Source: Branchiostoma floridae (taxonomy: Eukaryota > Chordata > Leptocardii > Amphioxiformes > Branchiostomatidae). From it: DNA of 64,000 nucleotides. A program made the position numbers and the translations under genes. The notes under the pieces were generated by a model that worked only from the letters and a program-made list of their open reading frames with translations, did not search any database and had not been told where the DNA came from. This document shows positions 2,557-62,402 of the stretch, piece by piece. Where the stretch lies: assembly GCF_000003815.2 (NCBI RefSeq), contig NC_049983.1, positions 14,295,569-14,359,568 on the forward strand. Reading direction: 5' to 3'. How positions within the stretch are numbered: position 1 is the stretch's first letter; each line of letters opens with the position of its first letter.

Positions 2557-5500
2557 ATGGGTTGGGAAGAGAAAGAGTTCGCGGCGGTGTTCTACAGCGA
2601 GCCGGGGGTGTTGGGCTTCCTGGCGAACGTACTGTCCGCCTTCCTCGCGGCGGTGGGGAACATGATAGAGCCCGCCGAGCAACCCGTGGTCGGCACGGTC
2701 ATCACAGGTCAGTCGCCATACACTTTTGTTTGCATACTGTCACAGTTGACAATACAATATGGACTTAGCCATGGAGTTTGTAGACTTAGCTATAACGTTA
2801 GTGTAATACAGTATCGAAACAAAACCAATTCATTACAGTAGCTTGTGTGACGTGTACGGGCTTGTGTTTGTCAAAGGGAAATCACCGTTTCTCATGAATG
2901 CTAAGTACAAGTAATCGTATAAATTCAAGTATCTGGCTGCTATGTGTGCTTCATTTTTACAGTATTATGGCATTTTCTGCTAAGTATAGCTCTATAGAAT
3001 AACAATTTTCTGTACAGCTCCATTTAGCCCCTAAATTGCCTAACGAAATGACATTCGCTTGACGTCATTCCGTCCTTTTGTATGTCGAAATTCCACGCAA
3101 AGAGGCATATCCAATAGAGATTCTGGTGCGTGAACGCTCTTTATGCATTGTTCATTGTCAACCGTTGCCAATAGTTGCCCCATGCTGTGCCCTTGCAGGC
3201 GTACACCTGATAGTTATCGGCGGGTTTGTCCAGCTGGTTGCCGGCCTGCTCAGCTTCCGTAAGTACGACCACCTGGCCGCCACCGCCTTCGTCACCTTCG
3301 CTGCCCTGTGGAGCAGCATGGGGGTTTTGAGGATCCTGGGAGCCACTTCTTTTGCTGCTTCGTCCGCGACCGTCGTAAACGCAACAGACGCCCCCGTCGT
3401 AAACGCAACAGACGCCACCGTCGTGAACGCAACAGCCGCCACCGTCATAAACGACGCAACCCTCCCGGGCCTCGTCTCCTACGCATGTGTGGCCGTAGTG
3501 TTATCCGTGACGTCAGCAACCACCAACTACGTCATGCCACCAGTCGCCCTCACCGCAGCCATATTGCTTTCCTTTGAAACCGTGGGGTTGTATCACATCT
3601 GGGGCAAGAAAGTAGCTTTCGCTTTAGAAGTCGTTTTGGTCCTTATAGCTCTCTATGGCGCTACAGCATTACTGTTGAAGGGGGTTTTCCAGCGATGGGT
3701 TATTCCGGGTTTCGGTAACGCACCTTTCAATGTGTTACTGTTTGGCACAAAGGCCGGCACATCAAAAAGCAAATCAAAAGAAGAAGAGAAAAAGAAGAAT
3801 ACAAAATACGCCGAGCCCATGGGACTAGGTTATCTCAGTAACGTTCCCGTAGCCGCTATCTTTGCTTTCCACTACCTCGGGTTTACTGAGTCTTTTCCCG
3901 CCGCCACACCGTGGGTTGGTCTCGCTTTGGTTTCACTCATCATCGCCTCTTACTACTCCTTCTTACGGAACGACGCTTTTCACTGCATCATGTTCGGTAC
4001 TCAGGCTACGTTCTGGCTATGCCAGGCCGCGGGGTTGGTCGCCTACAGTCTGACAGGTGAGCATGATCTTCGGTCTCCTCTTCTAGGCACGTGGGCATTC
4101 CTGCCTACATTCGCACTTCTTGTCCTGGTCTCACTCACCAAGGACAAAGTGACACTAGTCAACAACTTCGTCTTCGCTTTACTCTCCGTGGCTTGGTTCT
4201 CTGTGATCCCCCTAGCGGGAGCTAAGTACGCTGTAGGCGGCTTGTGTACCGCTCTGTCCGTCCTCTCTCTCTACTCTTCCTTCGCAAACCTCATCAACTC
4301 CGTCGCGGAGAAGCCCATCATGTGGGTTGGCTCCAAGTTCGTCGCCATGACAACTCTCAGGGAAGGTTTTCAGAGGTTTAGATGTTGCCGACCAGCCCGT
4401 GAGATCAGCACTGACAAGGACGCAGACGGCATGTGTAGGGAGGACAGTGCTGACACCTTAGCTTTTCTCAGCAATGCTGTCGCGGCGTGGGCAGCACTAT
4501 CCGGCAATGTTGTCCACAGCGCTGCCGTCCACATGGCCTGGATTGTCGGAGCTGGGATTCTGGTACAGCTGCTGTCTGCCTTGCTGTCACTTAAGGTCAA
4601 GAAGACCGCAAAGCCAGCCGGGATGGTGTACATAGCAAGCGCCTTGATGTGGGGAGTCTGGACTCTAGTGCGTCACTCAGGTAGGGCACGATATTGGTTC
4701 TGTAGCTTTCTAATTTTCTGTCATTTGCATTGTCTATTGCTGATTTTAGATACATGAAGTCTTTTCGAATGGATAGCAAACTTTTTTGTTTTGTTTTTTT
4801 ATAACTTTTAATTCATTTCGATTTCAGGATATATCTTCCAAAACACCTCGCTGGGCCACCACCAAGACAGCCTACTAGTCGGAGTCATCGTCCTGATGGT
4901 CATCAACCTGGGCAGCATGGTGTCCTCATGTTTTGTCAGCAAGGTAAAGACGCTTTGCAGTGGTTTAGTCTTTCATTATTCCAAGATTATGGAATTGTCA
5001 TGGATAATAACACCACCATGTATAGAGAATACACGTTACACTTGAACTAGTATCTGATGGTAATATGCGTTATTAGTAATTACACCTGTCATACTGACAT
5101 GTCATTCACAAACTGTTTCCCCTAGATCTGGTTAGTGACCACAGTTCTGATGGAGGTTGTACAGGTCTGCCTGCTGCTCTTCACGCTGGACAAGCTGCCC
5201 TCCCATCTAGCGGAGGCGTTCCTGGGCCTGCTCGGGGTGGTGTGCCTGTACGGGGCGGGGACGGCGCTCCTGGCGGCCGTGTTAGGGGTGGACGTCTTAC
5301 CGGGCCGGGGTCCCATCTGGCAGGTGAGTCTTTAGCACCTAGGTATTAAGTCTTGGAGTCCTTTGAGGAATGATACATTGATTGTTATCGGTGCAATGGA
5401 TAACTTATCTTAAATGACAGATGAATGATGAAAAGATGGGACTTGCTTGGGGTAAGGAGAGGAAAAGGTAGGAAGAAAAGAGGAAGGAACGGAAAGAAGA

Positions 5501-7555
5501 TGGGAAGAGAGGAAGAATGCGACAGGATTTGAAAGAGAGGGATTTCATTCCGACAGTTCATATAATTACAACTTCACTGCCTACGCGAATGCCAATGTTG
5601 ATATGCCACCTTCCATACATACAGGTAAACACTGACACAGAGGAGGAGTCCAGTTCAGGCCAGCTGACCATCCCCACGCCTTCCTCCAAGAAGACCAGCG
5701 GACTGCGGACCATCGCGGATCTCCTGGACGCTGGCGGGGTGTGCGGCATCCCCACCGACACTGTGTACGCCCTGGCCGCCTCCTGTAAACACCCAGAGGC
5801 CATCAAACGCATCTACCACATCAAGGTGAGATTATACTAGTACCCTTCGCCAAAGGCGTTTCATCTCAAACGTAGGGAAATGTGAGGCGTATATTCGCAA
5901 CGGTGGTCCCAGCCTTCATCCATAATTATACCTTTTTCTTTCTGAACCATAATGTTGGCTTATATATACACCTTTGGTTGTGCATGTTCCCTCCTCGGAA
6001 CTATATAACGTTATACATATAAGATGCCATTATATGTATATTCCATCATCACAAGAATACATGCCTCTTTCTTTCTGTACGCCTCGTACATACAAAATGT
6101 ATGAAGTGATGTACCCAAAGAATGCGAAGTTTAAACGCTATACTAACACGAGTTGCTCCTCCCCACCCAGAGTCGCCCGGCCGAGAAGCCGATCTGTGTG
6201 TGTATCTCCCACCTGGGCCAGCTGGAGGCGGCACAGCCAGGCTTCAGCCCGCTGTTGTGGGACTTCATGCGCCGCTGTTACCCCGGCGGCATCAGCTGTG
6301 TCGTGCCCAAGGGCGACTGGCTCGCGAACCTCGGTAAGTTAAACCTCTTGTATGCCAATGGCTACAGGATGTCAATCGTTTTAAAACACAATCATTTCTT
6401 TATCTAAATGTTAGTGGTTACAAATAATATCCATATGATTCTGCACGTGCACAGGACTGGGTGATGCTGTGAGCTACATCGGCACAAGTGACAGTATCTG
6501 CATCCGGGTACCTGACAGCACGGCCACCGCCCATCTGGTGTCCATGACAGGTGGGTACAGAAATGGGAGAGAGAAGAGCTGGCATTGGACGAAATATCTA
6601 TGGGCAGGGTATAGAGTGAAAATACATGGGAGATGGCTTACATGCTTGGTATGAGTGCAAAGTTAAAGTGACACTTGTTACCTCCATGAAAAATAGAGGC
6701 ATATTGTTCTGGATGTGTCTGTGTGTGCGGCTGCCTGTGTGTTTGTGTTTCTGGATATTTTTGTGGTCAGCATAACTGAACAAAAGCTGTTGTTGTCATA
6801 TCACTACAGGCTGGAATTGTGGCTTTGTTTTAAATTTTGTGGTCTGACAATACCCACAGGACCCCTGGGCATCACGTCAGCTAACCCTAGTGGGGAGCCT
6901 GACTCCACCCATCACGACATGGTCCTGTCCTCCCTGGGAGACAAGATAGACGGCATGCTGTGTGACGGTCCCTCCAACGAGCTGGTCGCGTCCACCGTCG
7001 TCAACTGCATGAAGATAGACGAAGGTAGGCGTCAAACGATGCAAAATCAATGTGTTAGAGGCTTTCTTGTCATGAGGGCATCTTGTGATTTTTATGACTT
7101 CCCCTTTTTACGGTTTAGAGAAGCCAAAGCACTTCGGTCACAGAGTGACGAGGTTAACGAAGTTGAGAAAAACATCTACGCAATGGAGTTCCCCGTCGGG
7201 TATGATTCATTGTCACAGGGGTTGTGATGAATCAATCCATGTATATCGCTGACATTGTCAATTGTATCCACAGTTATACCATATCTTATCATCTACTTCC
7301 TTCAAGGCATCTGCATCATCGAAACTTTGCTAAGTCTCCAGTCTCTAGCTAATGGCGCTTATATGATTTCTGTCTTAACCGACTGTTAAACTTTGAACTG
7401 TTCTGATTGTTATGTTTTCCCATCCCGTTCCAGTCGGCATCTCGTTCTTCAGGGTGGGGTGTACTCCTCAGGAAAGGGTGGAGCAGCTCTTCGCACAGGC
7501 TAAGGAAGCAGTCGGCCAGAATGCACAGTTGGAAGCCTCCATCAACTCCATTTAG
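2557..7555 (+). CDS. GPR1/FUN34/YaaH-like triple membrane module fused to YrdC domain, copy 1
   Basis: Nine exons: 2557-2707, 3199-4680, 4828-4943, 5126-5323, 5625-5825, 6171-6333, 6455-6550, 6860-7024, 7434-7555. They join in frame to 897 residues. Residues about 10-645 are strongly hydrophobic and hold three diverged repeats, near 10-240, 255-450 and 466-645. The first repeat contains the YaaH-family hallmark (G-x-x-Q-L-x-A-G, then S-F-R and A-T-A-F-x-x-F-x-A-L-W), seen in acetate/succinate transporters. Residues about 680-870 are a YrdC/Sua5 domain: P-T-D-T-V-Y, K-S-R-P-x-E-K-P and T-S-A-N-P-S-G are all present. In the known family this domain makes threonylcarbamoyl-AMP from threonine, bicarbonate and ATP for tRNA t6A. 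Whether the membrane part transports or senses anything is unknown. No signal peptide is evident. The gene stands directly before a paralogue in the same orientation. Confidence 0.85.
3373..3462 (+). repeat. In-frame 24-base repeat encoding VVNATDA units in copy 1
   Basis: Within the 1.48 kb exon, a 24-base unit with the core CGTCGTAAACGCAACAGACG occurs about three and a half times. It encodes V-V-N-A-T-(D/A)-A at residues about 109-135. Each N-A-T is an N-glycosylation sequon if this loop is extracellular. Copy 2 has no such stretch. Confidence 0.7.
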
Positions 7556-9664: not shown

Positions 9665-12600
9665 ATGCCTCCTCGGAACAACGACAAGGTGACAACCCCT
9701 CTCGTGGGTCCGCGCGTGCAGGGCATGTCGGGAGTGGTGCTGGGTAGCCTGGTGTTGGCCGCCCACAACTTCAGTCTGGACCTGACTGTAGCGGCGCCAA
9801 ACAGCCTCGTCACCGGGACTGTACTGGTCATCACGGGCCTGCTACAGTTTTCAGCAGGTAAGAAATATGTGTGGTTCTTGCTCATACGTGCATTTGAAGA
9901 CAAAAACTTATCATACACCTGTCAATACAAACTCCAGCGTGATTTCACATCCGCAGTGGCCGTGTACGGTGTATTCTATGAATGGAAATATGACATTATT
10001 AAAATTTCAAAGGTTTTATCAAACGCTTAAAAATATCCATCAATCACATATCAATGTTTTACTTTATTTGCATCTGTGCCTTTGCAGGTATCCGTCTGCT
10101 CCGTGGGCGTTATCACACCCTGACCACCCTGTACCTGTCCCTGTCGGTGCTCTGGGGGTCCTTGGGGTCCGCCAAAATCCTGGAGGGGTTGGACGTCCTA
10201 TCCTTGGACAACCGCAAAGACGGCCTTCTCCCTGGTTATGGGGTCTTTCTGTTCCTCACCCTTTTTCTTGGGATCGCGGGTAAGAAAGAGAGGAGTAGCA
10301 TTGTCAGTTGGATCTGTTTTCTGCTTAGTTTGTCCATGGTGATGGAGATTGTAGCCTTGTTCTATCCAGCAGGAAGATGGGGCACAGCCTGCTACCAGGC
10401 ACTGCCTGTGCTGCTGGGTCTTTACTACGTCGTTGGTTTGACAGTGTCACACTGCACAGGTAACGGTGTGAGTCTGCCTGGTATGAGAGAGGAAAGTCAA
10501 GAGACAGACGAAGATGAGGATGTCGTCAAGAATGACGTTTTGGCGTTTGCATACGCTATGAATATGATTCCTACCTGTATATTAGCGCTCCTCTTCATAG
10601 GCGTTACTCGTACCACCAATCAGGCAGCGCCGTGGATGGCGCTAGCGGGCCTTGCCCAGCTATTGGTTTCTGTTCTGTCCTTCAGACGAGAGGACGTGTT
10701 CCATGGAGCAGTGTTTTCCTTGTCTAGCACATTCTGGCTGGGAATAACATATGGTTTTCTCAGTACGCTTTGGGGGAAGGCGGAATTGGCGCCTCCTTTC
10801 CTAGCTTCCTCCATTCTCGTTCTCATCTTCCTTGTATTCTTCCTTCTGTCCTTCACCCAAACCATCTCTGATGTTGTGTACAACTTCTGTTTTGCCCTTT
10901 TGGTCCTTTCACTTCCCACTACAGGCTTGAACAGTACCTACTTAGGTATCGCCAGTATTTTGCTATTATTGATCTCCATTTACTGTACCTTTGCTTTGAC
11001 GTTGAACTCTGCGTTCCGGAGAACCCTTGTTCCCGTCGGGAGGAGCCTTCTACCTGAGGAATCGTTGCGTGGGCTCTTCTCTCGCTGCCAATGTGCTAGA
11101 CGTCGACAGGGCTATGAGAGCCTGCCATCCGGATCAACCAGTGCTGGTCTTTCTGGTTCTGATACTATTCTCGGCTACTCCAAGTACGCCAGCGCTGACA
11201 CGCTGGGGTTCCTGTCCAATGCCGTGACAGCTCTGGCTGTGGCGCTGTTGTCTACCGGGGACAAGTCTCTGGTCCTCCCCTGGGTGATCGTACCAGGAGG
11301 AGTCATCCAGTTCGTGGCGGGAACCATCAGCTTCTCCCGCGGGAAGACGTTCGAGAGCACGGCGTTCATGGTGTACAGCATGATGTGGCTGTTGTGGGGG
11401 TCTGTCAGGTACTCTGGTGTCTATAGAGGCAGTGAAGGGCTCGGTGTGGCGGCAGGAGCCGCATCTTTCCTTCTCTTTAACCTGTTTGTCATCTTCTTGT
11501 CTGTGGTGATCAACAAGGCGTGGTTGGTCCTGTCCGTGGTGTTTGAGGTGGTTTGTGTGCTGTTCCTGTTAGACGCGCTAGGTGTCCAGACTAGTCAATA
11601 TTTTGAGCTCGGGGTGATGTGTGTGTTTGGCGCGGTGTGCGTGTACTGTTTCTGTGTGCACCTACTGAACGGCATGTGTGGGGAGGAGGTGATGTCCCTG
11701 GGGAGCCCGCTCCTGAGCCTGGGGAGGGGGCACCGCGGCAGGGGTGGGGAACAGGGGTGTGTCATGGCAGACGCCAGGAAGGCGAATGGTGTCAAACAAA
11801 TCGCAGGTTAGTGCATCGTTTCTAATATGTCTAATATTTATCTTTATGATACCTTTATATATTGTGAGGCTAAGTTATTGCTTCTTTTGCATTCTCAAAG
11901 GAAACATGTTGAGAGAGAATGACAGTATGAATACACATCTTAACTGATGACTCGTACCGTTATGTGTGTCCCATACAGAACTGATGAAAGCCGGCGGGAT
12001 CTGTGGCATGCCTACAGACACCGTGTACGTGCTGGTGGCGGCCTGTAACCGTCCTGCCGCTGTGGAGAGGGCCTACCGCACCAAGAAACAAGCGGAGGAG
12101 AGACCCATGTCCATATGGATCTCACAGGTGATCACAGTAACTCCTGGTCTTTCTACATATACCATGCATAAGTGAACGTTGATATATGATTGATCAATGA
12201 GAAATATTAATTACTAAAGTTTGACGTCTTCTGTTCCAGTTGAGTCAGCTGGAGCCAGCCAGGGAGGAGTTCGGGCCGCTCCTGTGGGACTTCATGAAGG
12301 AGGTGTGGCCGTCCTCCATCAGCCTCGTTATCAAGAGAGGTACGTTGCCATGGAAACTTTCTCGTTCCCAACGTTTCGTGGTTTTTGGACAATGCAGATC
12401 ATTTTAAACTGCTAATGCGTTTCTTAACTTCCCTGTTTCTTTTTCAAATCGTTCAGGACACTTTGCCTACCGTTGTGGGTACTTGTTCTTGAAACCTAAG
12501 TACTATGTGCACCTTCCAGGACCGTGGCTGGACAGGTTTGGCCTGGGAGACTCCGCCCACTACATCGGCACCCCTGAGAGCATCGCCATCCGCATCCCGG

Positions 12601-13304
12601 ACTGCACGGTCGCCACCCACCTGATCGACCTGGTGGGACCCATCGCCGTGACCTCCGCTAACCCGTCCGGGGAGGCAGACACCACGCACCACTCACAGGT
12701 GCTGGCCAAGCTAGGAGACAACGTAAGTGCAGGGAAATTGATATCTGCAACTTTTCTTTCTTCATTGCAAACTTTGAGTTTAGGTTCGAGTGACGAATGT
12801 AGTTGATTACGTGTAGAGTAAGACAAATGGAAGCATAAATTTTCCTGAAAGCCTCATTGTGTTATATGTCATTTCATTATCATTAACCCGTAGGTGGACG
12901 GAGTACTGTGTGATGGCCCATCGCCCGAGAACGTCGCCTCCACCGTCGTGAACTGTGCGAAGATTGACGAGGGTGAGCTCGGCTTCTTTCGGGTTGGCAT
13001 CGTGCCCAGGGCGCAGGTTATCGGCATCTTCGACTCCGTCCGTCGGCGTCACGGCAGAAGCAGTTCGGCGGGCAGACGTAACGACAGCGCCCCGCGCCGT
13101 CACTACGGATCCACCAACGCGGCGCGAACCGGCCACGTCGTCCGGGGCGTTGCGTCAGGCCTGGCGGGAATCCTACAAGTACATGCCCAGGAGGACGACA
13201 CGGACATCGGCGCTTCACCACAGGTCGCGGTCGTCAGTGGTGCTGATGACACGGCTAACTCTCTAGCTTTCTCCACAACCAATCTACTGGACTTAAAATC
13301 TTAA
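9665..13304 (+). CDS. GPR1/FUN34/YaaH-like triple membrane module fused to YrdC domain, copy 2
   Basis: Six exons: 9665-9857, 10088-11806, 11979-12127, 12240-12339, 12520-12722, 12894-13304. They join to 924 residues. Residues about 1-620 carry three YaaH-like repeats; hallmark segments read G-L-L-Q-F-S-A-G, G-L-A-Q-L-L-V-S and G-V-I-Q-F-V-A-G, the last followed by S-F-S-R-G and S-T-A-F. Residues about 637-820 are the YrdC domain with P-T-D-T-V-Y and T-S-A-N-P-S-G kept, but the K-x-R-P motif of copy 1 reads K-K-Q-A. A tail of about 100 residues, Arg/Ser-rich at first, has no match in copy 1. An in-frame acceptor at 12456 would add 21 codons. A splice-like CAG directly precedes the ATG, so a 5' UTR intron is possible. 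The enzyme role is doubtful for this copy. Confidence 0.85.
12343..12356. promoter_or_regulatory. X-box-like site in an intron of copy 2
   Basis: GTTGCCATGGAAAC just inside the intron after exon 4 fits the RFX X-box pattern. A chance match cannot be excluded. Confidence 0.2.
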
Positions 13305-15141
13305 AATCGGCAGGTCTGAGCAAAAAGGAGCTTAGTTAGAACGAACACTGTACAGCGCGTCAAAACTACAACGGAATATCTTTCAAAATCTCATGGCTGT
13401 AAAGTGTAAATACTTACTTTTATTCGTACCCTATCATAAACAATATTGTATAAACCCAATTATAGATTCAACTTTACTTTATTTCTAATAAGACTTTTTC
13501 AGTTTGGTCCTACAACGCATTATTTTTTCTGTAATAAAATCAGCATATACAACTTAATGACGGATTACCTTAAGGCTTTACTTCAAAGTAAAAACATGAT
13601 CCCACAATAAATCTGCAGTCCTACTTAACGAGTAGATTTAGAAGTAGACTTGCATTGGTTGTTGGGGCGTTGTTTGAGGTATACGGCAAGCATTTACAAT
13701 CGGGAACGGTACGGCTGTATGTAGTTGATATTGATATTAGTTCTGATTTCCTTAGCCGTATGTTGGTCCTTTGAATTGCACCATATGTACTTACTTGTTG
13801 CAAAGTACATGGCGTTGTGCCCTGAATGCCGATCGTGCTACTACTATGTCAATGAATCATTGAATAAACTCATGAAAATGAGGATTGAATGAGTTATCTT
13901 GATTGATCTGATTTTATGTCTGATGGGAGGAAATGTAGAGTTACATGTAGCACATAAAGTGTAAGATCAACAACACGCTTCTCAACTACATCTTTTTTTC
14001 TATCAACGTACGAACTGAGTATGTGAGTGAATACGAACTATTGAGGCGTAGAAATGTGGTCCGGGCGATAATCATAAGGAAGGGCATTTTTTTCGGAAAT
14101 GTTAGACAGACAGCGAACTTCTGAAGCCTTTGGGTTCCAGGTATTCTTTTCACTGTCACCTAGAATTCAATTTCCTTGTAACATATCATTTGAGTGGTCC
14201 TTTTTTACTGTACTTTTAGGCCTAGAAACGTTTGGTGAAGACTAGAATTCTGCCAAGTGCATGTAGCGCCACTGTGGGTACCGGGTGAAAAGAGCATCTT
14301 ACGGCACTTTAGGTGGCGTCACTGTGGCCAAGAGATTTGACGACGTATTCCATCGATTGACAAAAAAGACATTATTGTATTAAGCCTTGGTTGTTCAGTT
14401 TTACTTGTATGTTTTGATACTTGTTGACATTCCCAATATATAAAGTACACAAATCCAATCTAGAACGCAGCGAAGCAGTCAACGTGCCGCATTCCAGTGA
14501 TCATGAGATCCTCGTCTGCAAAAGAGAGGAGAGGGGTGTACTTGCGCATGTAGAATACGGAAGATCTAAAACGAGCAGACATGACCTCATCTAAGTGGTT
14601 TTACGAATGACTCACAAGACTCTCCCGTGGTCGTGTGTAATGGTTCCACGGTTAAGTTTCGGTGGCAACAAGTAGTTACTTGCCCAAAATACCACGTGAT
14701 ATTATCGATTTTGTTCATGCAAGACAGGTCAAGGGTACTTGACTCCAACAGGTAGCATGACGTACTCGAAACCAGTTCTCGGAAGAGGAAATGCTGTACG
14801 ATATCAACTCCCTTCTTGGAATAAACGGAAACTTTGGTCCGCATGCATGTGTCGTGCGTGTGTGGCCGACCTTGCCAAGCGGCTTTCGTTACTAGGTGAT
14901 GGATTACATCACGCGGAAGTGACTAGGTGGTTTCCATCGGTATGAGCTCAGACTTTGTCATTCTGACCAACCGACGGCCTGGACATAAAACGATTCTGAT
15001 TCGCCTAAATGATCACATGATGTTGAAGACTGTTATTTAAAGAGTCTAACATCTGACCTGTCAATAGTCCCGACAGTCCCACGTACAGTCCCAGGTACAG
15101 ACGTCCGTCCATCTTACCGTATCTACAGCCCTACAGAGACA
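13305..15141. other. 3' UTR of copy 2 and intergenic DNA
   Basis: AATAAA occurs at 13533-13538 and 13863-13868 and may end the copy 2 transcript. The remainder is AT-rich and holds no supported exon. The last part presumably contains the PEBP promoter. Confidence 0.45.
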
Positions 15142-16920
15142 ATGGAGAAGCACGGCGTGGTACCAGACGTGATCGACGCCGCACCGAAAGGTGTTTTGGA
15201 GGTGGGGAAAAAGAAGTACTATGCAATAATGAACTACATGTACCAATCCTTTTGACTTGCTAGGTGGAAAACTTTTTTACCGGTGGAAATTTCGTAACTG
15301 AGCAATTTTCTGTTCACAGGTTCAGTACGGAGCGCAGAAGGTGGACTTTGGGAACGAGCTGACTCCTACACAGGTATGACATTGTCTCAAATAACTCCCC
15401 TCGATCGCGATTCAAGTGTGGTACAACCGTAGTTAGTCCTTGCACCGTGAAATTGAAAGATATCATAGGTTAGAAGAACATTTTGTGCTTCATGTTTCTT
15501 TCCCTTGATCGTAGGTAAAGGACAATCCCACGGTTCTGAAGTGGGACAGCGAACCGGGAGCCTTCTACACTCTCATTCTAACAGGTAGGACTTCCCGCCG
15601 TCTAGTTATGGATTGCCTAAGGGGTGGGCAGGGCTGGAAGAAATAGAAGGACGTGAGGAGAATTGAATAGCAGAAGGACCGTGACACAGGGAAATATTGA
15701 ATAGCAGAGTGCTAGTGGATTTATCAAAACGCTGAGAGTGACCATGTGTGAGAGAATGGGGAATGGGGGAAGTATGTACGTCTGGGGAAGGGTAGCAAGA
15801 CTCGCCAGCATTAAGATTCATATTGCAAGCATCATGAGAGCTCGAGTCAACTGCGCATTTATTTCCTCTTTCGCATAGCTTGTCTTGTGATTTCCAAGTC
15901 ATCTGCGTGGTAAAGTTTCAGTTTCGATGACGCTCGCGCCATGCTTTGTCAATCAAGACACGCTGTATCCCTAATACTAGGCAACACGACTTTGCCTAAC
16001 TCTGCGATAACTTTGATGGTTTCAGATCCTGACGCACCCAGCCGTGCCAACCCGGAGTACAGAGAGTGGCACCATTGGTTGGTGACCAACATCCCCGGAA
16101 ATGACGTCAGTAAGGGGGAGGAGCTATCACAGTTCGTTGGGGCGGGGCCACCTCAGGGCACAGGTGAGGTCAATGGAGATACAGATTAGAGTTGTGATTG
16201 AATGAAAGCCTTTATTGTACATTATTTCTGTCCAACTTGGCTAAGCACAGGTCACAAGAAAGACGTTTACAACATACACATGTTGTCTAGTACATAAATT
16301 CGACTTCTTTTCGCTTCTTGGTAATGGGTAATGGTGAAAATGTGAGATGTATAGGTTTAGTTATAGTATACGTCTTCTGTGTGCTTGTATTCTAAAATTA
16401 AATTTTGATTTCATATAGCGATCTTTAGCATTGACTTGTAGACATAAATTCTATATCGAAGTGCTATGGCCGTATGCACTAAGGTTGCCATGTTCATCCC
16501 TTGCCATGCCAGGCCTACACCGTTACGTCTATCTGATCTACAAGCAGCCCGGCAAGATCTCGTGTGAAAACGAGCCCAAACTTACAAACACCTCCGGGGA
16601 AAACAGGTAAACATAACATTATTTTCTCTACGTCCATCACATTCTAACGTAGTACTTTTTTGCTATTGAATTACCTTAAGATATTTTTCTTATAAAATAT
16701 GTAAAAGGTCACATGTTCAACACGAAGGATGAATGTATCTTTTATGAGACACGTAACGTTATAAGTATCTTACAGTTGTTGTTTTTGTCCTTCCAGGGGA
16801 AAGTTTAGCGCCCGTGACTTCGCGAAGAAGCACGCCCTGGGTGCACCTGTGGCGGGAAACCTGTTCCAGGCGCAGTATGACGACTACGTGCCGATCCTGC
16901 ACAAACAACTCGGCTTCTAA
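15142..16920 (+). CDS. PEBP1: Phosphatidylethanolamine-binding protein (PEBP/RKIP)
   Basis: Six exons: 15142-15201, 15320-15373, 15515-15584, 16026-16163, 16513-16606, 16797-16920. They join to 179 residues, close to the usual length of cytosolic PEBP1. Exon 4 begins with the diagnostic D-P-D-A-P-S-R motif and continues to [12 protein letters not shown]. Exon 5 has the second anion-pocket motif G-L-H-R-Y-V-Y. The C-terminal helix region ends L-H-K-Q-L-G-F. There is no signal peptide, so a cytosolic protein is expected. Family members bind anionic phospholipid head groups, and in vertebrates RKIP inhibits Raf1. Lancelets may have several PEBP genes, so one-to-one orthology with PEBP1 is not certain. 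Confidence 0.93.
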
Positions 16921-17734: not shown

Positions 17735-20700
17735 ATGGGACGGTTGTTCAAAGTCGGCTGTGCTTTTGTGAGGCATCGGTCTTCAGTCCTGACACCCATC
17801 CTACAGGTGGTTACCAAACCTCTGTCCACCACGAGTACCTCTGTGACCACGGAGGTTCACAAGTTCTGTCTGGAAACCCCTATTGACGAAGCCACCACGC
17901 CTCCTGCTAGCTGGTAAGGAAAATAACTGAACTTCTAAACGGTGTTCAAGATATATTCTCCTATTCGTACAAGCAGGCCATAATAAGCAGCTTTTGATAT
18001 CGAGAAATCGCCCCTACATCGTAATTGTTTATGGATCCACATGCAAGCCACTGGTCAAGATGGCGGGTCAAAGAACACAGTGCAAGTCTGATAATGATAT
18101 GATGAGCATTTGACAAAGATCATGCCAACGTAGGCTGTTAAAAGTTGTGTGCCGTCATGCCTTGGATACAGCTCGTTGTTATCGGCAAGGCATGAAATAT
18201 ATCTGACATTGCATACCTTCAATGAAAACAATAAACTGCTAGGGTCAGACATGGGTCAGTGTTCGAAACGAATTGTGTGCTGCACTTCTCATCTGTTCCG
18301 CCAGGTGGCAGTTTTGAACAACAGCTAAACGTAGTTCAGTGTTGATGAGATTGAAGTTTTGTATTCCTCAAGTTTTAAGTTAAAGAGTAAAACTGTTGCA
18401 GGTACACAGATGGACGTCTGCACGACCTGGAAATGAGAACTGTGTTCCGGCGGAACTGGGTAGCAGTGGGCGTGGCTAACCAAGTGGCAAAACCTGGACA
18501 GTTCTTCACAGGTGTGTTGAAACGAAAATCAACGGTCCACGCTCGACCCAGAACTACGTGATGCAATCTTTTAAAAATCATCCCCCGACACCCATTTTTA
18601 CTCGGATGATCCATTTATTTAAAACAATACATCTTGACCAGGATCAATATATAGAAAGTTTATTGCAAATTCTTGCCATCACTACAAACAGTGTATAACA
18701 ATATAGCAAGGTCTAGTCTAGTCTAAAAGCTAACTCTACATTCTAGGTTGTTGGGTTAGACTTCTTTCTCAAAGACAGTGGAAGACGAAAATCCCACCTT
18801 TTCTATAACGTTAATGTGTGAGTTTTGTGATGTTAGAAGGAGAATTGTTTTCTTCATGTCAGTGAACGTGGAGAAATTTTGGTGGAATCTGGTAGCCTCT
18901 TCAAATAGTAGAAGCTGTTTTCTTTCATGAATATATTATGATATATCATACAAATCAATTTTACTTCCCGGTATACTAGGTGTACTAGGCACCGACCCGT
19001 TTGTGGTGGTGCGAGACCAATCTGACCAGCTGCGGGCCTTCCACAACGTGTGCCGCCATCGGGCTAACATCGTGGTACGGCAGGGGGAGGGGCAGGCTCA
19101 ACACTTCACCTGCTGCTACCACGGGTGGACATACAGGCTGGACGGGAGGTCGGAAACTTCTCATTCAATTAAGTTCTACTGAACGCCCATTCCTCGTTAA
19201 CTGGGAAAATTGGAGGTAGAAAATTGTAAAAAATAAAGTTGTCCAAAACGCTTACCTGCTGGTATGAACTTGTTACCACTTATATCGACTATCTTTTGCT
19301 ATTTTTGTCTGGTGCTAACACGCTTAATTTTGGAGATATTTGATTTTTAGTAGGCCATGTCATCTTTCCTACAATTTTGTAATAAAGAGCATATTACTAC
19401 ACAGAGAAATGTTCCAGCAAGTAATAGTGGATTAACAACAGCCAAATTAGCGCATTTTCCAACCCAAAACCTTCAAATTACACGCCAATGAGAAATATTT
19501 AACCGCCGTGTCATTTGTTTCGGAATAATGATCAAAATTACTAGCTATTAAGTTTGCTACATTTGTATAAAAGTAAATAAATGATTTTTTTTCTGATATG
19601 AAGACAAACCGTTTAATACTCCTTAATTTTCACCCTGTAGGATGGGATAAGAGCGATAGAATATATTTATGAAAATGGTTGGAAGCAGGCGATATCTATT
19701 CTACAGGTAAATGCCAATGAACTGTGGTAACGTAAATTACAGAATCTCTAACATTTGGAGGAAAGCCGAATAGTGTACATACTGGCTCTATTTGAACTGA
19801 TCAGGTCATGTTCGTCTATAATGCTGGACCTCTTATCTTCATGTTGCTAACTCAGAGTAGCAAAAAAGTGTAATCTTTGTTATCCGGAATACCCGTATAA
19901 TCTTGTTCGTCCTATACCCACCCGGACTCTGCGGAAAGACACCCAAGATATGCAAGGTCCCTATCTTGGCGGGGTCTATTTAAATACATGCTAAGTAACA
20001 AAGGATTCACGCAATCACACGCTTTAGGTCAGAACCGCTTCGTCCTCGCGTCCTTTAATCAAGTCTTTGGGAATAGCAGGACATGATGCGATGGCAACAT
20101 GCACCAGATGGACTGGGCCTTTCTAGCACAAGCTTTCGATATTGGAAAGACAACAAACTAAACACCAGTTATCGCACTTCTTATAAAACATTTTTTAATG
20201 TCAGGACAATCTTTGTTCGTGGAACAAACACAATGTCACATCAATATAGAATGAATGTGCTACCTAACAAAATGTCGATCCATACACCTTATATCGTGTG
20301 GTTCAATAATACCGGCAGAAAGAACTGTGTAATATGTGTATAACAAGGCTTTTGTTGATGAGCAAGGCTATAAACAACAGTGAATTTTCCAAAAGAGAGC
20401 TGCATGTGTAAAGGCACTGGTCTGTTCTACAGTTATCCTGGCAGCCTGTCCCTTTATACTATTGTACTAATGCCACGATTACATGACAAGCCTGACGTTA
20501 TATAGATCTTGACTTTATAGAGTGGGATTGGTTTCACAAATAGCTTTCTGCCTTGAACCATGTGTCTGTCCATGTAAATACGACTGGACAAATCACGTAA
20601 CTGACATTCTCAACTATAATGGTTTTGGACATGTATGGACAAACCCGAGGTTGTATCAAGCAAAGGTGAAAACTTCGGAACATCTAATGATAGTGAAGTC

Positions 20701-23700
20701 TTAACTCAAGTTAGCTATTAACTTCTGCAGCCCATATGCTTTTGATCATGGAGCTTAAAACTCAATGACAAGTCCTCAATGTAGATAACGTGGCGCTAGC
20801 GTAAATAGTGTCGCTGATTTACCGCCGTCTGTACGTAAAGGGGTCCACTGTGTAAAACGAGAAATATTTCTGTGACACGAATCTTGACTACATTGACCTT
20901 CATAATTAGCTGATCATAATCTCTGTTGCTATTTAAGACAAACATGCTTGAAACGTACCTTACTTCATCAGTCAGTGTTGAGCATGAATTTCTGTCATTC
21001 CAGTCCTGTGATCTTCAAAAAGCGCGCGAAAATGACGACAAACTTGGAAGAGTCTACTTTGACAACATGGGTTTACTTTGGTTCAGTCCAACCCAATATA
21101 CATTTATTGAACTTGGCACTATACATTCCGTGTAATGTTGATTATTGAAGCATCAGATATCAATATAAACACCCGCATCTATGAGAAATGAAAAGTCCCA
21201 GCATCGTAAAATTCACTGAAACAGAAACATATAAACAGACTGCATTGTGACTCTATGGCAAGCCAAGCCCACCTACAGTAACATTACAGCAGAAAATAAG
21301 CCAAGCCCACCTACAGTAACATTACAGCAGAAAATATGTCTTTGGTTGATGTGCTCTTGCTGAACATCCGATGACATGTTGAAGAAAAAAAATGGTAACG
21401 TAAATTATATGGTAACGTAAATTATATTTATGCTTTTAATGATAAATAAAATTTTAACAAACAGCTCTGGAAAGATTAACTCTGCAGGCAATTACTTATC
21501 TGGGAGCATTCTTTCCTATGAGTAAAAAAGTAATGATCTTTCTATAATTCTAATGGACTTATTATGGTAACGTAAATTATATCAAAAAAGTGACAAACGG
21601 CCTGAGATTGGCGGTGATAGTCATGTTTCCAACATTCGTGTTTTATGTGTCCTGTCATTTGTTTGTTACGCAACACCACTGTTTAGCAGATAAAACAGTG
21701 AAAAAATTATCGGAAAATGTCTTTTCGTAAGCGAATTACACCCAACAGAAGTTCGGTAACGTAAATTATACAAAAGTTGGCGACAAGAATAAAACGGCAT
21801 CTGACGTAAAAGGGTCGTCTGCTGGACAAGTTCATCAACACGTGACAAGCCGGCCTAAGTGGTTGATGTAAATTATGACTGAAAATTTAAAGAACTAACG
21901 TCTTTTCATTATCAGAATGCCATGATATTCACCTTTATAGCATTTCCGACACGTGTTTTTAGCGTGTTTCTAAGCAAAACCTTACCCGGGACGACCAAAA
22001 GGCAACTAACAATGGTGGGAAAACATTGCTTAGCATATTACTATCATGTACTTGTAACGGAAAAGGGCAAAATACGTAGTCATTGTGTCTTTAAAGAAAA
22101 CTGTGGCCCGCTGCTTATGTGCGACAGCAATTTGCCCCTTTAACGAGGAATGGGCGTGAAGTTAAACCAGCGAAGACTGTACAATTTTTGCCCGCCGCAT
22201 ATATGGTAAATGACAACGATAGATGTATGTGGGCCAGGTGTGCGCCATCGCTAATTGAATTTTACGAGGCAGCCAATTGGCGCGCGGCATTTATCATACG
22301 CGATGGCCTGATTGGTCGACAGTGTTTAGCTCTTTCTGTTACTATAGTAGTTTGTTATCTACACGTGCAATTGCTTTGTATTCCTCTTTTTGTCGTTTCT
22401 TTTGCATTTTTTCTTGTGACAGGGAACGGTGTGCGTTGGTAAGTTGTTGATAATCAAGCCCTACCTCCAACCCATTAGACTATCGAAGGCCCTGCGCCTA
22501 CGCGGTATAAAGAACTTCTCTGCGCGAGAGAACGGCCTGAAGCCCGTAGCGGTGAGGACGTGGGGCCCGGTAGTGTTGGTGCAGCTGGAGGGAGACGGGA
22601 GGGAAGACTTCGAGGAGAAAACGTCTCCTTTGTTACAGCATCTCGACACGCAGGGCTTCACACACGGGATGAGGCACATATGTCGGCGAATCTATGATGC
22701 CAAGTATGTGAAGACTATGTTTTATTGTTATAGTACTTCGTCAGATATCGAAAAGTTCGACTCCCGTACAGAATTGTTTTTACCGACTAGAACCATGTCT
22801 TTATTTTTTCCATTAGATATAACAATATGTGCTGCTCTTCTACAAGTTCTGCTTTAACAGTTAACCCTCTCGGTGTTATCGTTTGTTGTGTGTGGCAGAG
22901 AGTCGATGCGTGGATTGCAGTACCAAATTTAGCAGATTGGGGGCAGGTCTGTAAAGTATTCCCTGGCCGGGTATAACCGCCTTTCCATGAATTGACATGG
23001 ATTGATGTTTTACCCCTTTGATACCTGTTCCTTTTACTAGATGAACTTAACTATGATATACTTACAGGTGTAACTGGAAATTGTTGGTTGAGAACGCACA
23101 GGACCATAATTCCCATGTTGAGTATGTTCACAAAGATCTGGCAAAAATCGTGGATCTGCCTTCCACCAAGGTGCAAGCAACCGAACTGTACAGCAAAATG
23201 GTAAGACTGCACAGTTTCAGAAACTAGCTATGAGTTTGTATTCACATTTATTCGCCATTGATAAGACTCTGTACATAAAGAAACTAGTGCCTCTATTCAA
23301 ATGTCTGCACAGACGAGTACCTCTAATACTTTTACCAATTCAGTATACACAAAATACCTGTCTCGATGATATCTAATTTATCGATGTGTATGTGGTAGCA
23401 TTAGAACGAATCACTCACTCGCTATCCATTGTTTGATTATACTGCTGCTGGGATCTCTGATGAACGAATGATGAAGAAATTTGGTGAAATTTAATCGTTG
23501 GCGTTTCTTCCGTTAGACGGGACAAGGAGCGACGGAAAACGAGCAGTCTACAGAAGGCCAGCGTTACGGTCAGGCGGGGTACATCGTAGCAAACGTCTTT
23601 CCAAACCTCGCCATCAACCGCTACGGTCCGTGGCTGGACACCAACCTACTCCTTCCCCTGGCCACTGACCGGACACGGATAGTCATGGACTACTTCTTAG

Positions 23701-23933
23701 AAGAAGACTTCGTCAAGAACATCGGTGACAAGGAACTGGCGGAGTTTGTTGAAACAAGTTTGAAGGACAGTGACCAGGTGCAGAAAGAGGACAATGACAT
23801 CTGTGAGAGTGTGCAGAGGGGACTGACGTCATCTGCCTATGACGTAGGGCGGTACCTACCCGCCATAGAACACGGTCCGCACAGGTTTCACATTTTCCTG
23901 GGGACGGAACTCAGGAAGGGACTGAAATTGTAA
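17735..23933 (+). CDS. Rieske [2Fe-2S] non-haem iron oxygenase, choline monooxygenase-like, probably mitochondrial
   Basis: Six exons: 17735-17913, 18402-18511, 18980-19148, 22479-22703, 23068-23200, 23517-23933. They join to 410 residues. The start at 17735 gives an N-terminus rich in Arg and hydrophobic residues without acidic ones (M-G-R-L-F-K-V-G-C-A-F-V-R-H-R), typical of a mitochondrial presequence. The Rieske cluster ligands are C-R-H, 17 residues, then C-C-Y-H, near residues 120-142, followed by G-W. The mononuclear iron site is in exon 5: N-W-K-L-L-V-E-N-x-x-D-H-N-S-H-V-E-Y-V-H. Family members use O2 and an electron-transfer partner; choline monooxygenase makes betaine aldehyde. The substrate is inferred from overall similarity only. 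The donor after exon 3 (AG|GTCGGA) is weak, and the intron that follows is 3.3 kb. Confidence 0.88.
19726..21770 (+). repeat. Cluster of GTAACGTAAATTA motifs
   Basis: The 13-mer GTAACGTAAATTA, usually preceded by TG and followed by T or C, occurs near 19727, 21395, 21411, 21567 and 21757. A shortened version (TGTAAATTATG) lies near 21866. Two copies are only 16 bases apart. All are on the same strand and inside one intron. Confidence 0.65.
21260..21335 (+). repeat. 38-base perfect tandem duplication
   Basis: Two adjacent identical 38-base units start AAGCCAAGCCCACCTACAGT and end in GCAGAAAAT, at 21260-21297 and 21298-21335. Perfect identity suggests a recent event. Confidence 0.8.
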
Positions 23934-27595: not shown

Positions 27596-28396
27596 CTATT
27601 CCATGTACACTGCGTACACCGTCGCCACGCAGAACACGCTGCCGTTCTGGAAGGTTGAAGACGCGAAGGTGTCGACATTTGGGTCCCACGCACATCGGGA
27701 CGCCACCCGTATGTCCTGCGCGTGGCGCTCCCCTATGTTGGCCACGCTGATAAGTTTATACCTGGGCGGGAGAAATTCCTTCATCCTCTGCTTCGCCTCC
27801 TCACATAAGTTCTTGGTTATCACACCGGCTGTGCCGGAGTTGTACACATAATCACACAATTTTTCCTCTAACAGCTCTGATAACGCTTTCTCGGCGCGTC
27901 CCGAGAAGAATTTGGAGACGGGGCCGAGTTGATACGTGTGTTCTTGTTCCGGTTCCTCTTCTTCCGGCGGCCGCGGGTGCTGAGGTCTCCAGGGCCTGTC
28001 CGTGTGCGCCAGGTAACTCGCACCTTTCTTATCCGTCACCCTCTGCGCCGCCATCCTCTTCAAGTTCATGGCCAGTCGTTTGGTGACCATGAGGCTGCGG
28101 AGGTTGACGGGTGGGGGTGGCGGGGCCTCTTGCGAAGCCTTTCCCGCTCCGGACACGCCCGCGATGGTCATGTGTATCTCTCCCTTGTCTATCTCCTGTT
28201 GCTGACACAACCGACGACTGTCCACCTTCGGTGCCTCATCTTTACCATTACTGAAACTACTGCTGGTGTCTCGTCGGCCTACTGAGGCCAGCGACGGCTG
28301 CCGACGGGTTAGCTGTTTCCCCTTGCCCGAGCTGCCGCCGCCGCCGCCGATCAAATCGAGCCGACTCGTCCTCTTCGCTAAATTTGCTTTGCTCAT
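27596..28396 (-). CDS. Tctex1-domain dynein light chain (DYNLT4/DYNLT5-like), single exon
   Basis: An intronless 266-residue reading frame. Residues 1-150 are low-complexity, basic and Ser/Gly/Pro-rich, including a glycine run near 18-21, R-R-Q-P-S-L-A-S-V-G-R-R and a run of seven prolines. Residues about 152-266 match a Tctex1 domain: the Y-Q-L-G-P start, P-P-R-Y-K-L-I in the central strand, R-V-A-S-R-C-A-W-D and the C-terminal F-C-V-A-T-V-Y-A-V-Y-M-E. Tctex1 light chains bind dynein intermediate chains and cargo; the TCTEX1D subgroup with long N-termini includes axonemal and PP1-binding members. Assignment between DYNLT4 and DYNLT5 is not settled here. Lack of introns may be ancestral or reflect retroposition. 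Confidence 0.88.
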   Translation of the reverse strand: MSKANLAKRTSRLDLIGGGGGSSGKGKQLTRRQPSLASVGRRDTSSSFSNGKDEAPKVDSRRLCQQQEIDKGEIHMTIAGVSGAGKASQEAPPPPPVNLRSLMVTKRLAMNLKRMAAQRVTDKKGASYLAHTDRPWRPQHPRPPEEEEPEQEHTYQLGPVSKFFSGRAEKALSELLEEKLCDYVYNSGTAGVITKNLCEEAKQRMKEFLPPRYKLISVANIGERHAQDIRVASRCAWDPNVDTFASSTFQNGSVFCVATVYAVYME

Positions 28397-31300
28397 TTTC
28401 TCCTCTTCCGAATTCCCTCGTAACTAACGCATTAATCCAAAAAGAGCCGACAGCAGACTGAAAATGTCGTCAATTACAGGTAAATGTGTTTACCTCAGAG
28501 TCGGGCACACTGTTGCAGCTAACGAACCGTGCAACAAGCCATGTAGTCCGCCTGCACTGTTCTGTTCACACGCCGTGAGCAGCACTAGTGTTGAGCAATC
28601 GTGCCACCCACCTGTGGAGGTATCCAACAACAGCCTGGCACTAAAGACAATATTTTCATTACCCTACTCTGTTTGACACGTCACTCACGTCCGCCCGGCA
28701 TGTGAGTCTACACATGTAACCACCAACACAAGAAACACACAGATAAGCTAAAAGCATATTTATGTACCATGTCGCAAACAATACGAACGCATGTAAAGCG
28801 CCAAAGAATTCGAACAGCCAATGGTAAGAAAGTTCTGAAAACATGTCTATGAATATTCAAGAGCGTGAAAGGGGCCTTGTTTGGCCACTCTCCGGTCTCC
28901 AAACATAAAGCGTGGAGGATTAGATGGGAACAAACTAAACGAGGTCGATCAACCGCCATGGAAACCAAGAGCAGAGGACAATCTTAAGAGTCTTTTATTT
29001 TGACTGGAGTGTTGCTGTCAATGGAGTTATGGGAGATTTTAGGGTGTTACAGGAATCTTAATAAGAACTGATCGGCTCTGACATTAAGTACTGTGGAAAT
29101 ATGGCGTTAAACGTGTTAGAAAGGTAAAACGTGTGCTTAAAATCATATAATGGTCATTGTTCTGTCTCGGTTGAAATGTGCCTGCTCACATGTGTGCACC
29201 CTGGTTGGCACGACAAGGCGACAAACTAAGACCTCAGAACGTGTCATGCATGCAGAAATGCGAGAAAACATAGCAAAACACGGGTGCGATTTTCCAGTCT
29301 CCAGATTGTACGTGATTTGTTTCCAACATTCTTCCGTCCCGGCCATGTCCGCGTCTTAGACTTTTCTTTGTTTTCCTTCCTTTCTTTCTTCCTTTCTCAA
29401 CTGTCAAGATGCCTTTATTGCCACACTGTCTGTCATCGCAGACGTGTTGGAATTTTCATCATTTTAAAGTTTAATGTGCAAAGAACACTGTTTTTTCGGC
29501 GGGATAGTCCCAAAATATTTGCAGCATCCATTTTAAAGCAGTACGTGGATCATCTACTTTGTTGATAGGCTAAAAAAAGCTAAAGAACGCACTTATGATA
29601 CCATCACCCATATTGTGCATCAAATAATAACTTAATTGCACAACAGTTGTCAAATATGCGAGACAATTACTGGCAAAACTGCCCAAGAAGACCACTCAAT
29701 GGGTTGGTCAGTGTAGACAGGTGATCACTATAGACAGGGCCAGTCTTAATTCTTGGGTCAATGGGAAAATTATGTAAGGGACTACCTAAAAGTGGTCACA
29801 TAAGCCAGTTGATCCTTACGTAGAGGTGGTCACTTGTGCAGGCTCTGTGTGCATTTTAGACCTCCTTGTTACAACAACGGTTACGACAATAGTCAGTCAG
29901 CATAACCTACTAATACCACCAGACCTTTCAGTGTTTGTCTGACGGTTCGCTCACACAATACTGGTAACCTGATTCGGGCTAATCTTTTAATCAACAAGGG
30001 AAAGGGTTTTAAATCCCTTACAGGTTGGTCGCCGCTCGAAGCTCAGTTCCAGTTGATACGGGTTTATTGTGGCATTCACCAGCATAGCAAAACTAAACAT
30101 TTACTCAGGGCAAGACTGATTAGATTATTTGTTAGAGGAGACCTTTGTCTTATCTTTTGCAGAGTGCATTATGCTGATAGTCCAAACACGTTAGATTTTC
30201 TTTAGTTTGAAAACATTGTTTATAAAATTTAACTTCTTTTTTGTTGGTTTCTAGTGTTTGTGCCGTTTTACACTATATGGTTGTTAACGTTACATGATGT
30301 AGCGGTTTTCTAGTACTAGTATCATATGCTTCTCCATACCTTTGACGATAAGAAAAGTGATGTCGGTGCGAAGTAGCCAGATGGAAAAGGTAATGAATAT
30401 GTGTACATGTATAATGTACATACTGCAAATGATTAGACGTCTGGTCTATATCCGAACTGGAGTCCACAAAACTATGGAATGAACTGGATGTCGGTTATTA
30501 GGATGTTAATCAAAGTATATCTCGATAGGGACTAATCATTGAGGATGTTGGGGTAGGGGTGGAAAAAAAATAAGGTTCCCTCTTACAACGTCAAAGGTAC
30601 ACGTCGCATGTTTCCAATTAGAAGTAGAAAACCTCTCATCAGAACAAAATACTAGAATCTGGGCATAGTCTCCAGCATACCCCATATGGATCACAAGAAA
30701 AATAGAAAAGCGGACAGGTAACCTTACAGATGTGTAAGCGGGCAAGACAGTACAGCACACTGAGTGTTATCTGTAAATTCGGTCAACTTCTATTCTTTTT
30801 CCTGCGACCTATGGAGTCTGGTTTCGGCACACAGGGCCAGATTTTGCTTTCCTTCTTTTTATCATTTCAAAAATATTAATCATCTTCCTGGTGGATATTA
30901 ACTGTAGAACTATATGATGACGTGATAAAATCATTTAGTAGTGTTAAGTACATGACAACAAAGGAATCCTGTATATAGTGTTGAGGCCGAATCCATTACC
31001 AAGATCCTAGTCTGACCTTTCCTCACCCAGCACCCTAGTTGCTAGGTAACGCCCGTGCCTCCGCCATGACAAAAGAGTCAGTTTACGTCCTGCAAATGCC
31101 ACGGTCATACCTTTAATCCGCGTTACCATGGCAACGAGAAAGCTGCATATTAAGAATGGTATGTTTAATCTGCGTCACTATGGTGACGAAGTAGAAGTTG
31201 TTCGCGCGTGCTATACTGTTCCATCTGAGTCTAAGGTGTTGAAGTTGCAAAAGACAGATAAGATAACCTAGAGAGTGTTTGAATCCCAAGGCCAAGTTTT

Positions 31301-62110: not shown

Positions 62111-62402
62111 TAACAGCTAACGATCTGTGCTCTGGGAAGGAATCTTAATGCTAGAGAACCAAATCATTCTCCAAACAGAAAATTTTTCGTCTTCGCACCG
62201 CCATCTTGAAAATTTAGCGCCAATTTCAATCCCACAGTGCACTTCGAGGCCCTTATTTTATCCCATCATGCAGCGCGCAGTAGGGCAATTCAAAATGGCG
62301 GTATCAACAAAAAGAACTTCGGGTTCTTGTGGTTTTCTTTGATTCATTTGAGTTGCTCGCACTTTTAACACCACTATTGTTTCCCGAAAGGACAAAGCCA
62401 CG
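62111..62402. promoter_or_regulatory. Bidirectional promoter between TUBGCP6 and NCKIPSD
   Basis: Only 292 bases separate the two divergent start codons. The stretch contains CACCGCCATCTTG (62196-62208, YY1 motif on the minus strand) and CAAAATGGCGG (62291-62301, YY1 motif on the plus strand), pointing outwards toward each gene. No TATA box is evident. Shared initiation is inferred from geometry and motifs. Confidence 0.6.

Follow-up and report, generated by a model that had tools for sequence, protein, structure and literature searches.

The closest described system to the locus treated here is the vertebrate ATO-Sua5 protein (PMC13316224, iScience, 22 June 2026). According to the available sections of that paper, there are two vertebrate Ato clades, found in every major lineage except mammals. 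The proteins of vertebrates and of their close invertebrate homologues have approximately 900 amino acids (aa) and contain three Gpr1/Fun34/YaaH domains. A C-terminal Sua5/YciO/YrdC domain is reported for almost all vertebrate sequences, and the protostome and fungal clades are said to lack it. A dimer is proposed there to form a six-domain ring, and the function is left open in those sections. Among the literature matches listed, this is the only description of such a fusion. Here, a gene of the lancelet Branchiostoma floridae with the same arrangement, termed gene 1, is described together with two paralogues, genes 2 and 3. Genes 1 and 2 lie in a stretch of 64,000 nucleotides on contig NC_049983.1 (C5:14295569-14359568), which is called the window and from whose first letter all positions are counted unless a contig is named.

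The lancelet fusion and its described relatives

Gene 1 and its paralogues resemble vertebrate ATO-Sua5, as far as the available sections describe it, in their size (897, 924, and 912 aa for genes 1, 2, and 3), in their three six-helix Gpr1/Fun34/YaaH domains, and in the C-terminal Sua5/YciO/YrdC domain. The low Pfam scores of some modules are also common to both. The fusion architecture is already in print for vertebrates in that source, and gene 1 is, judged by its sequence, a lancelet member of the animal Ato-Sua5 family. The main text of PMC13316224 mentions "close invertebrate homologs" but names no lancelet, cephalochordate, or Branchiostoma, and its supplementary trees may include them. 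What is added here to the available sections of that paper concerns the YrdC catalytic residues, the differences between paralogues, and the introns.

Gene 1 starts with an ATG at 2557 and its stop codon ends at 7555. It forms a single 897-aa frame with no internal stops, in nine exons separated by eight introns with GT-AG at every one, and the limits proposed in a sequence-only reading of the window were correct. Splicing is predicted throughout, and the gene models rest on the genomic sequence. The intron between the membrane part and the linker (exon end 5323, next start 5625) is in phase 0, so the joining exons are in phase, as that reading had also claimed. Its principal claim, that three YaaH-like membrane modules are fused to a YrdC domain, is confirmed for gene 1 with splicing as predicted; the evidence consists of the PF01300 match, a joint module profile that finds SatP, and the alignment with SatP. 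The chain ends 13 residues past the aligned YrdC domain. The positions of all parts are collected in the table. In addition, a 24-bp tandem repeat of 3.7 copies (3365-3453, forward strand) lies within a coding exon of gene 1 and codes for three NAT sequons in the loop between transmembrane helices 3 and 4 of module 1, which is predicted to be outside.

Table. Positions in the window of gene 1, its predicted parts, and gene 2
Feature	Position	Strand	Description
Gene 1	2557..7555	+	Exons 2557-2707, 3199-4680, 4828-4943, 5126-5323, 5625-5825, 6171-6333, 6455-6550, 6860-7024, 7434-7555; from the open frame and Pfam
Gene 1, SatP-like module 1	2593..3695	+	aa 13-216, split by intron 2708-3198
Gene 1, SatP-like module 2	3813..4322	+	aa 256-425
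Gene 1, SatP-like module 3	4437..5296	+	aa 464-640, split by introns 4681-4827 and 4944-5125
Gene 1, linker from membrane part to YrdC domain	5297..5693	+	aa 641-672, split by intron 5324-5624
Gene 1, TsaC-type YrdC domain	5694..7513	+	About aa 673-884, five exons; T693, K716, R718, S809, N811, S847, R864
Gene 2	9665..13304	+	924 aa, six exons: 9665-9857, 10088-11806, 11979-12127, 12240-12339, 12520-12722, 12894-13304; architecture like that of gene 1, KxR replaced by K673-K-Q675
Gene 2, exon 2	10088..11806	+	Codes for most of the three modules, the linker, and the first six YrdC residues (aa 632-637, by the TIGR00057 match)

The membrane modules and the YrdC domain

The membrane part is similar to the SatP/Ato/AceTr proteins (PF01184; structures 5zug and 5ys3) in its six-helix module, in the presence of Trp76 in six of six modules, and in the significant match of the joint profile. 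In contrast to those proteins, the lancelet chain has three modules, has mostly lost the NPAPLGL and FLY residues, and carries a C-terminal enzyme domain. The whole protein of gene 1 matches PF01184 (Gpr1_Fun34_YaaH) at 14-98 with 23.8 bits (E 3.9e-5), which is below the Pfam cut-off of 25 bits, and that of gene 2 is above the cut-off with 28.1 bits. Taken singly, one of the six modules of genes 1 and 2 passes, namely module 3 of gene 2 with 30.7 bits (profile positions 18-183 of 207). Module 1 of gene 1 reaches 21.2 bits and module 2 of gene 2 reaches 8.4 bits (E 2.1), while modules 2 and 3 of gene 1 and module 1 of gene 2 give no match. The hidden Markov model search that the sequence-only reading had suggested as a check of its proposal returned a YaaH signal just short of the cut-off beside a strong PF01300 match in gene 1.

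A joint profile was built from pieces of all six modules of genes 1 and 2, taken as contiguous stretches of the window (three whole and three cut at exon ends). A search of 177,635 distinct PDB sequences with it retrieved three at E 10 or below, namely SatP 5zug (7.6e-9) and SatP 5ys3 (6.8e-8), besides an unrelated chain (0.4). Profiles of module pairs gave no match for module 1, and SatP was at the top for both module 2 (0.069) and module 3 (1.6). The six full modules used as a profile aligned with E. coli SatP over 165 columns, with an E of 1.2e-7 in this single comparison. On the joint profile, the hydropathy, and the SatP alignment, all three modules are assigned to the SatP/YaaH kind. For module 1, the assignment rests on the PF01184 match in gene 1, which is below threshold, and on the joint alignment.

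The meaning of the AceTr signature motifs NPAPLGL, FLY, and SYGFW is described in PMC13316224, in the sections available. The NPAPLGL motif and the FLY constriction are mostly not kept in the six modules of genes 1 and 2. Phe17 of the SatP constriction is kept in none of them, with Asn in five and Val in module 1 of gene 2 (MAFFT alignment; the first helix agrees by eye in the hhalign output). Asn8 of NPAPLGL is likewise kept in none, and one module has a gap there. At Tyr72, two of the six modules have Tyr or Phe, and Leu131 is kept in two. Trp76 (SYGSFW) is the only tabulated position kept in all six. The residue numbers are those which we take to be the constriction of E. coli SatP, and they fit F, Y, and L in the alignment. 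The Asn common to five gates may indicate an altered selectivity, or it may go back to the first module, before this was triplicated. The earlier description of the membrane part as a carboxylate-transporter-type module holds in so far as the SatP/YaaH homology is concerned. Since most of the transporter signature residues are lost, the words "carboxylate transporter" are deduced from homology.

Lysine and arginine together number 33 in the inside and 7 in the outside segments of gene 1, and 29 and 8, respectively, in those of gene 2, with some helix limits set by hand. All four sequons of gene 1 fall in loops predicted to be outside. The three sequons of gene 2 are found in an outside loop, within helix 1, and in the C-terminal tail. 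The charge distribution and the placement of sequons favor a cytosolic YrdC domain.

The YrdC domain is of a kind that ordinarily serves in tRNA modification. PF01300 (Sua5_yciO_yrdC) is found in gene 1 at 682-853 with an E of 9.8e-34 and in gene 2 with an E of 1.2e-32. A PDB search with the YrdC domain gave 11 matches up to E 1, of which the best were threonylcarbamoyl-AMP (TC-AMP) synthases (E 2e-18) and the last was unrelated (0.9). The substrate residues of P. abyssi Sua5, according to the available part of PMC10321239, are KxR/SxN for ATP and T33, S181, and R195 for threonine, and seven residues were scored in its numbering (T33, K56, R58, S143, N145, S181, and R195). All seven are kept in gene 1, and six of the seven are kept in each of genes 2 and 3. 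The KxR...SxN tetrad of gene 1 is complete (K716, R718, S809, and N811), and it is incomplete in genes 2 and 3, which have KKQ. The threonine pocket of gene 1 consists of T693, S847, and R864, with identical residues in genes 2 and 3. The claim of an apparently intact YrdC domain is accordingly valid for gene 1 with regard to these listed residues; genes 2 and 3 are without the Arg of KxR.

Similar to TsaC/YrdC threonylcarbamoyl-AMP synthases (PF01300), the YrdC domain of gene 1 has KxR...SxN, the threonine-pocket residues, and TSAN. The latter is the TsaC-type signature with Thr before SxN, and it is present in all three genes in place of the Sua5-type PSAN. In contrast to these synthases, the lancelet domain is attached to a membrane part, carries KxQ in genes 2 and 3, and has an insert of approximately seven residues in the GLGD region. 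The fused YrdC domains have this insert in common, and it is missing from all five of the other aligned sequences, namely E. coli TsaC, E. coli YciO, P. abyssi Sua5, MTH1692, and a separate locus on C9 of the lancelet. A two-domain Sua5 was rejected on motifs, because there is TSAN instead of PSAN, KPSPT and GVE are lacking at the corresponding positions of the alignment, and no SUA5 domain follows YrdC. YciO was rejected as well; KxR and SxN, both of which are missing in YciO, are found in gene 1, and the identity to E. coli YciO is 20% over 190 positions. TobZ and HypF, as described in the available part of PMC9654439, are comparable in that the YrdC domain is the adenylate-forming part of a larger protein. 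They differ in that YrdC is fused to Kae1-like carbamoyl transferases and not to a membrane channel.

The paralogues, the junction, and the genomic surroundings

Genes 1 and 2 have 32% identity over 893 aligned columns (BLASTP, E 1e-132), with 54% in the YrdC domain against 29% in the membrane part. Gene 3 lies outside the window on the minus strand (approximately C5:14269809-14273887), 24 kb before gene 1 and inverted relative to it. It has six exons and the architecture of genes 1 and 2, and its identity to gene 2 is 80% in the membrane part and 94% in the YrdC domain. The order of modules and YrdC, which the sequence-only reading had seen recurring in a second gene, is therefore present in three genes at separate places. 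An assembly artefact, which that reading had dismissed, is very unlikely in view of this recurrence and was rejected. None of the eight introns of gene 1 shares a position with the five of gene 2, and genes 2 and 3 share five of five. Either the ancestral fusion may have had few introns, or one lineage may have passed through an intronless stage. The 297,569 bases surrounding the cluster, which include 3,231 N, showed no further copy.

Recurrence and homology lend good support to the junction of the membrane part with the YrdC domain, although its splicing is predicted. In gene 2, exon 2 extends from the modules across the linker as far as aa 637. Because the TIGR00057 match begins at aa 632 and the Pfam match PF01300 at aa 639, this exon holds at most the first few YrdC residues. 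If the exon were left unspliced, an in-frame TAG (11809-11811) would follow it directly, and the same is true of gene 3. Gene prediction could have wrongly joined two adjacent genes, or two alternative products, with the membrane protein and the YrdC protein being separate in reality. The intron in the linker of gene 1 is compatible with such an error, and so are the stops right after the exon 2 donor in genes 2 and 3, the Met that opens the next stretch (ELMKAGG in gene 2), and the start of the PF01300 match of gene 2 just beyond exon 2. On the other hand, TIGR00057 covers six residues from exon 2 of gene 2 (aa 632 on) in a stretch that aligns with gene 1, the order is the same in three genes with frames and splice phases that fit in all of them, and a fused protein of this kind has been published from vertebrates (PMC13316224, in its available sections). 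Wrong joining is consequently considered extremely unlikely.

Genes 2 and 3 were compared by the ratio of non-synonymous to synonymous substitution rates (dN/dS, Nei-Gojobori), which is 0.32 for the whole sequence. The modules have values of 0.29 (module 1), 0.18 (module 2), and 0.11 (module 3, an estimate based on 12 changes), and the YrdC domain has 0.15. The last value comes from 26.5 synonymous and 13.5 non-synonymous changes (40 in total) in 208 codons, and the domain looks constrained in both genes. The C-terminal tail after YrdC displays no such constraint; the proportions of non-synonymous (pN) and synonymous (pS) differences are 0.53 and 0.78, respectively, and dS is not computable. 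Synonymous divergence is 0.48 in module 1 and 1.06 in module 2, and it falls to 0.07 in module 3 and 0.20 in YrdC. The block of low divergence extends over 11185-13043 of the window and the matching part of C5:14270000-14272034. This drop suggests that gene conversion between genes 2 and 3 is likely in module 3 and YrdC, and the Gln of KxQ, though kept in both, therefore does not count as two independent observations.

The genome (513,431,437 bases) was searched for relatives with only the best candidates scored, so that absence from these searches is not proof. PF01184 gave two matches, in genes 2 and 3, and missed gene 1, and that search alone is therefore not sensitive. The membrane protein of gene 1 gave four matches, all within the three genes, and there was no YaaH-type match elsewhere among the best candidates scored. 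PF01300 gave eight matches among the candidates scored, six in the three genes and two at the one locus on C9. This separate YRDC-like locus (C9:12589864-12590451) has KGR and SAN motifs and is probably the ordinary YRDC, the enzyme of N6-threonylcarbamoyladenosine (t6A) synthesis. An origin of the fused YrdC domain as a recent copy of this gene is not supported, as the identity is 24-27% over 135-136 positions with two C9 pieces joined. Searches with short exact peptide patterns confirmed no prokaryotic or viral relative of the fused YrdC pair (genome and viral contigs) or of E. coli SatP (viral contigs), and this negative is weak, since even true SatP remained without a match.

Several other features were noted in the window. 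A frame at 23517-23930 contains a ring-hydroxylating oxygenase alpha-subunit domain (PF00848, E 1.6e-18), and a Rieske-like stretch upstream of it, at approximately 18970-19160, was recognized by eye only. Exons at 15121-16920 resemble, by eye, a gene of the PEBP family. A Tctex-1 domain (27599-28423, minus strand, E 2.3e-24), a gamma-tubulin complex C-terminal domain (48851-49237, minus strand, E 8.8e-14), and an SH3 domain (62352-62759, plus strand, E 5e-15) were also found. Of eight window frames scanned with Pfam, four were without a match. An assembly gap of 100 N is located at 35857-35956.

Possible functions of the fused protein

We give about an even chance to the reading in which gene 1, as an animal Ato-Sua5 member, would couple a ring that acts as a channel or sensor of small anions to a cytosolic, adenylate-forming YrdC domain, with genes 2 and 3 being ligand-binding regulators. 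The protein would have 18 helices with a cytosolic N terminus, and the YrdC domain would be suspended beneath the membrane on the cytosolic side. A six-module ring as in SatP would be made up of two protomers, an arrangement also proposed for the vertebrate proteins in the available sections of PMC13316224. The YrdC domain of gene 1 would still bind ATP together with an amino acid or a carboxylate as ligand, and would probably still form an acyl-adenylate such as threonylcarbamoyl-AMP or a relative of it. The ring in the membrane would let through or sense a small anion, either an acetate-like carboxylate or bicarbonate, and the supply of the anion and the formation of the adenylate would be coupled at the membrane. 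The sequence-only reading had suggested a metabolite sensor or a channelled enzyme, which is possible. In genes 2 and 3, which are without the Arg of KxR, the role of YrdC would be mostly regulatory, by ligand binding. The separate YRDC-like locus on C9 would most likely provide the ordinary t6A supply.

Several observations weigh against this reading. Of the 18 helices, hydropathy found 16 automatically in gene 1 and 15 in gene 2, together with one segment inside the YrdC domain of gene 2, and the remaining helices were placed by hand using the SatP alignment. The sequon in the C-terminal tail of gene 2 falls in a part predicted to be cytosolic. The equivalog cut-off of the NCBIfam model TIGR00057 (123.2 bits) is narrowly missed by gene 1 with 110.1 bits and by gene 2 with 107.5 bits; a strict TC-AMP synthase function is therefore not endorsed, and an unusual substrate is possible. 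Furthermore, the transport motifs are eroded, and the pore may therefore be closed, re-specialized, or merely structural.

The YrdC domain could instead be a regulator and not an enzyme, which binds ATP and an amino acid and gates or traffics the ring in the manner of a transceptor; the site of gene 1 would then look intact and be non-catalytic. The apparent constraint on the YrdC domains of genes 2 and 3, although the Arg of KxR is Gln in both, is in line with this. A precedent is offered by IRIP, which we take to be YRDC. IRIP negatively regulates several membrane transporters according to the available part of a review (PMC7464608), and the same IRIP work is cited for YRDC in the available part of PMC8517968. 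However, gene 1 keeps all seven of the listed substrate residues, which a pure scaffold would not need, and the dN/dS of the YrdC domain of genes 2 and 3 comes from few changes in a sequence seemingly levelled by gene conversion. A regulatory role is considered possible, with the odds against it. In another explanation, transport has been lost and the membrane part does no more than tether a t6A-type enzyme to the membrane. The loss of most NPAPLGL, FLY, and SYGFW residues except Trp76 agrees with it, and so does the faster divergence of the membrane part compared to YrdC. Modules 1 and 2 nevertheless look constrained by their dN/dS between genes 2 and 3, and the gate Phe has changed to the same Asn in five of six modules, which could have been selected but could equally be a legacy of the first module from before the triplication. 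We hold a dead transporter to be improbable.

A further proposal is a bicarbonate-fed or CO2-sensing adenylate synthase, in which a SatP-like ring with Asn in place of the gate Phe would feed bicarbonate to the cytosolic TsaC domain. Human YRDC requires bicarbonate at very high levels, with a Km of 13 mM in TC-AMP formation, according to the available part of PMC5951830, and a small-anion channel beside the enzyme would therefore make sense. This proposal is very improbable in our view. If it were true, chordates would own a membrane-localized, CO2-dependent source of a TC-AMP or acyl-AMP signal, and the KxQ paralogues would be versions of it that act as sensors only.

The fusion of SatP-like modules with a TsaC-type YrdC domain is probably older than the split between lancelets and vertebrates. 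The cluster provides a natural comparison between the intact-looking site of gene 1 and the single substituted catalytic residue of genes 2 and 3 in a domain that looks constrained. The biochemistry of this odd pairing would tell whether chordates have put the chemistry of tRNA modification to use at a membrane anion channel.

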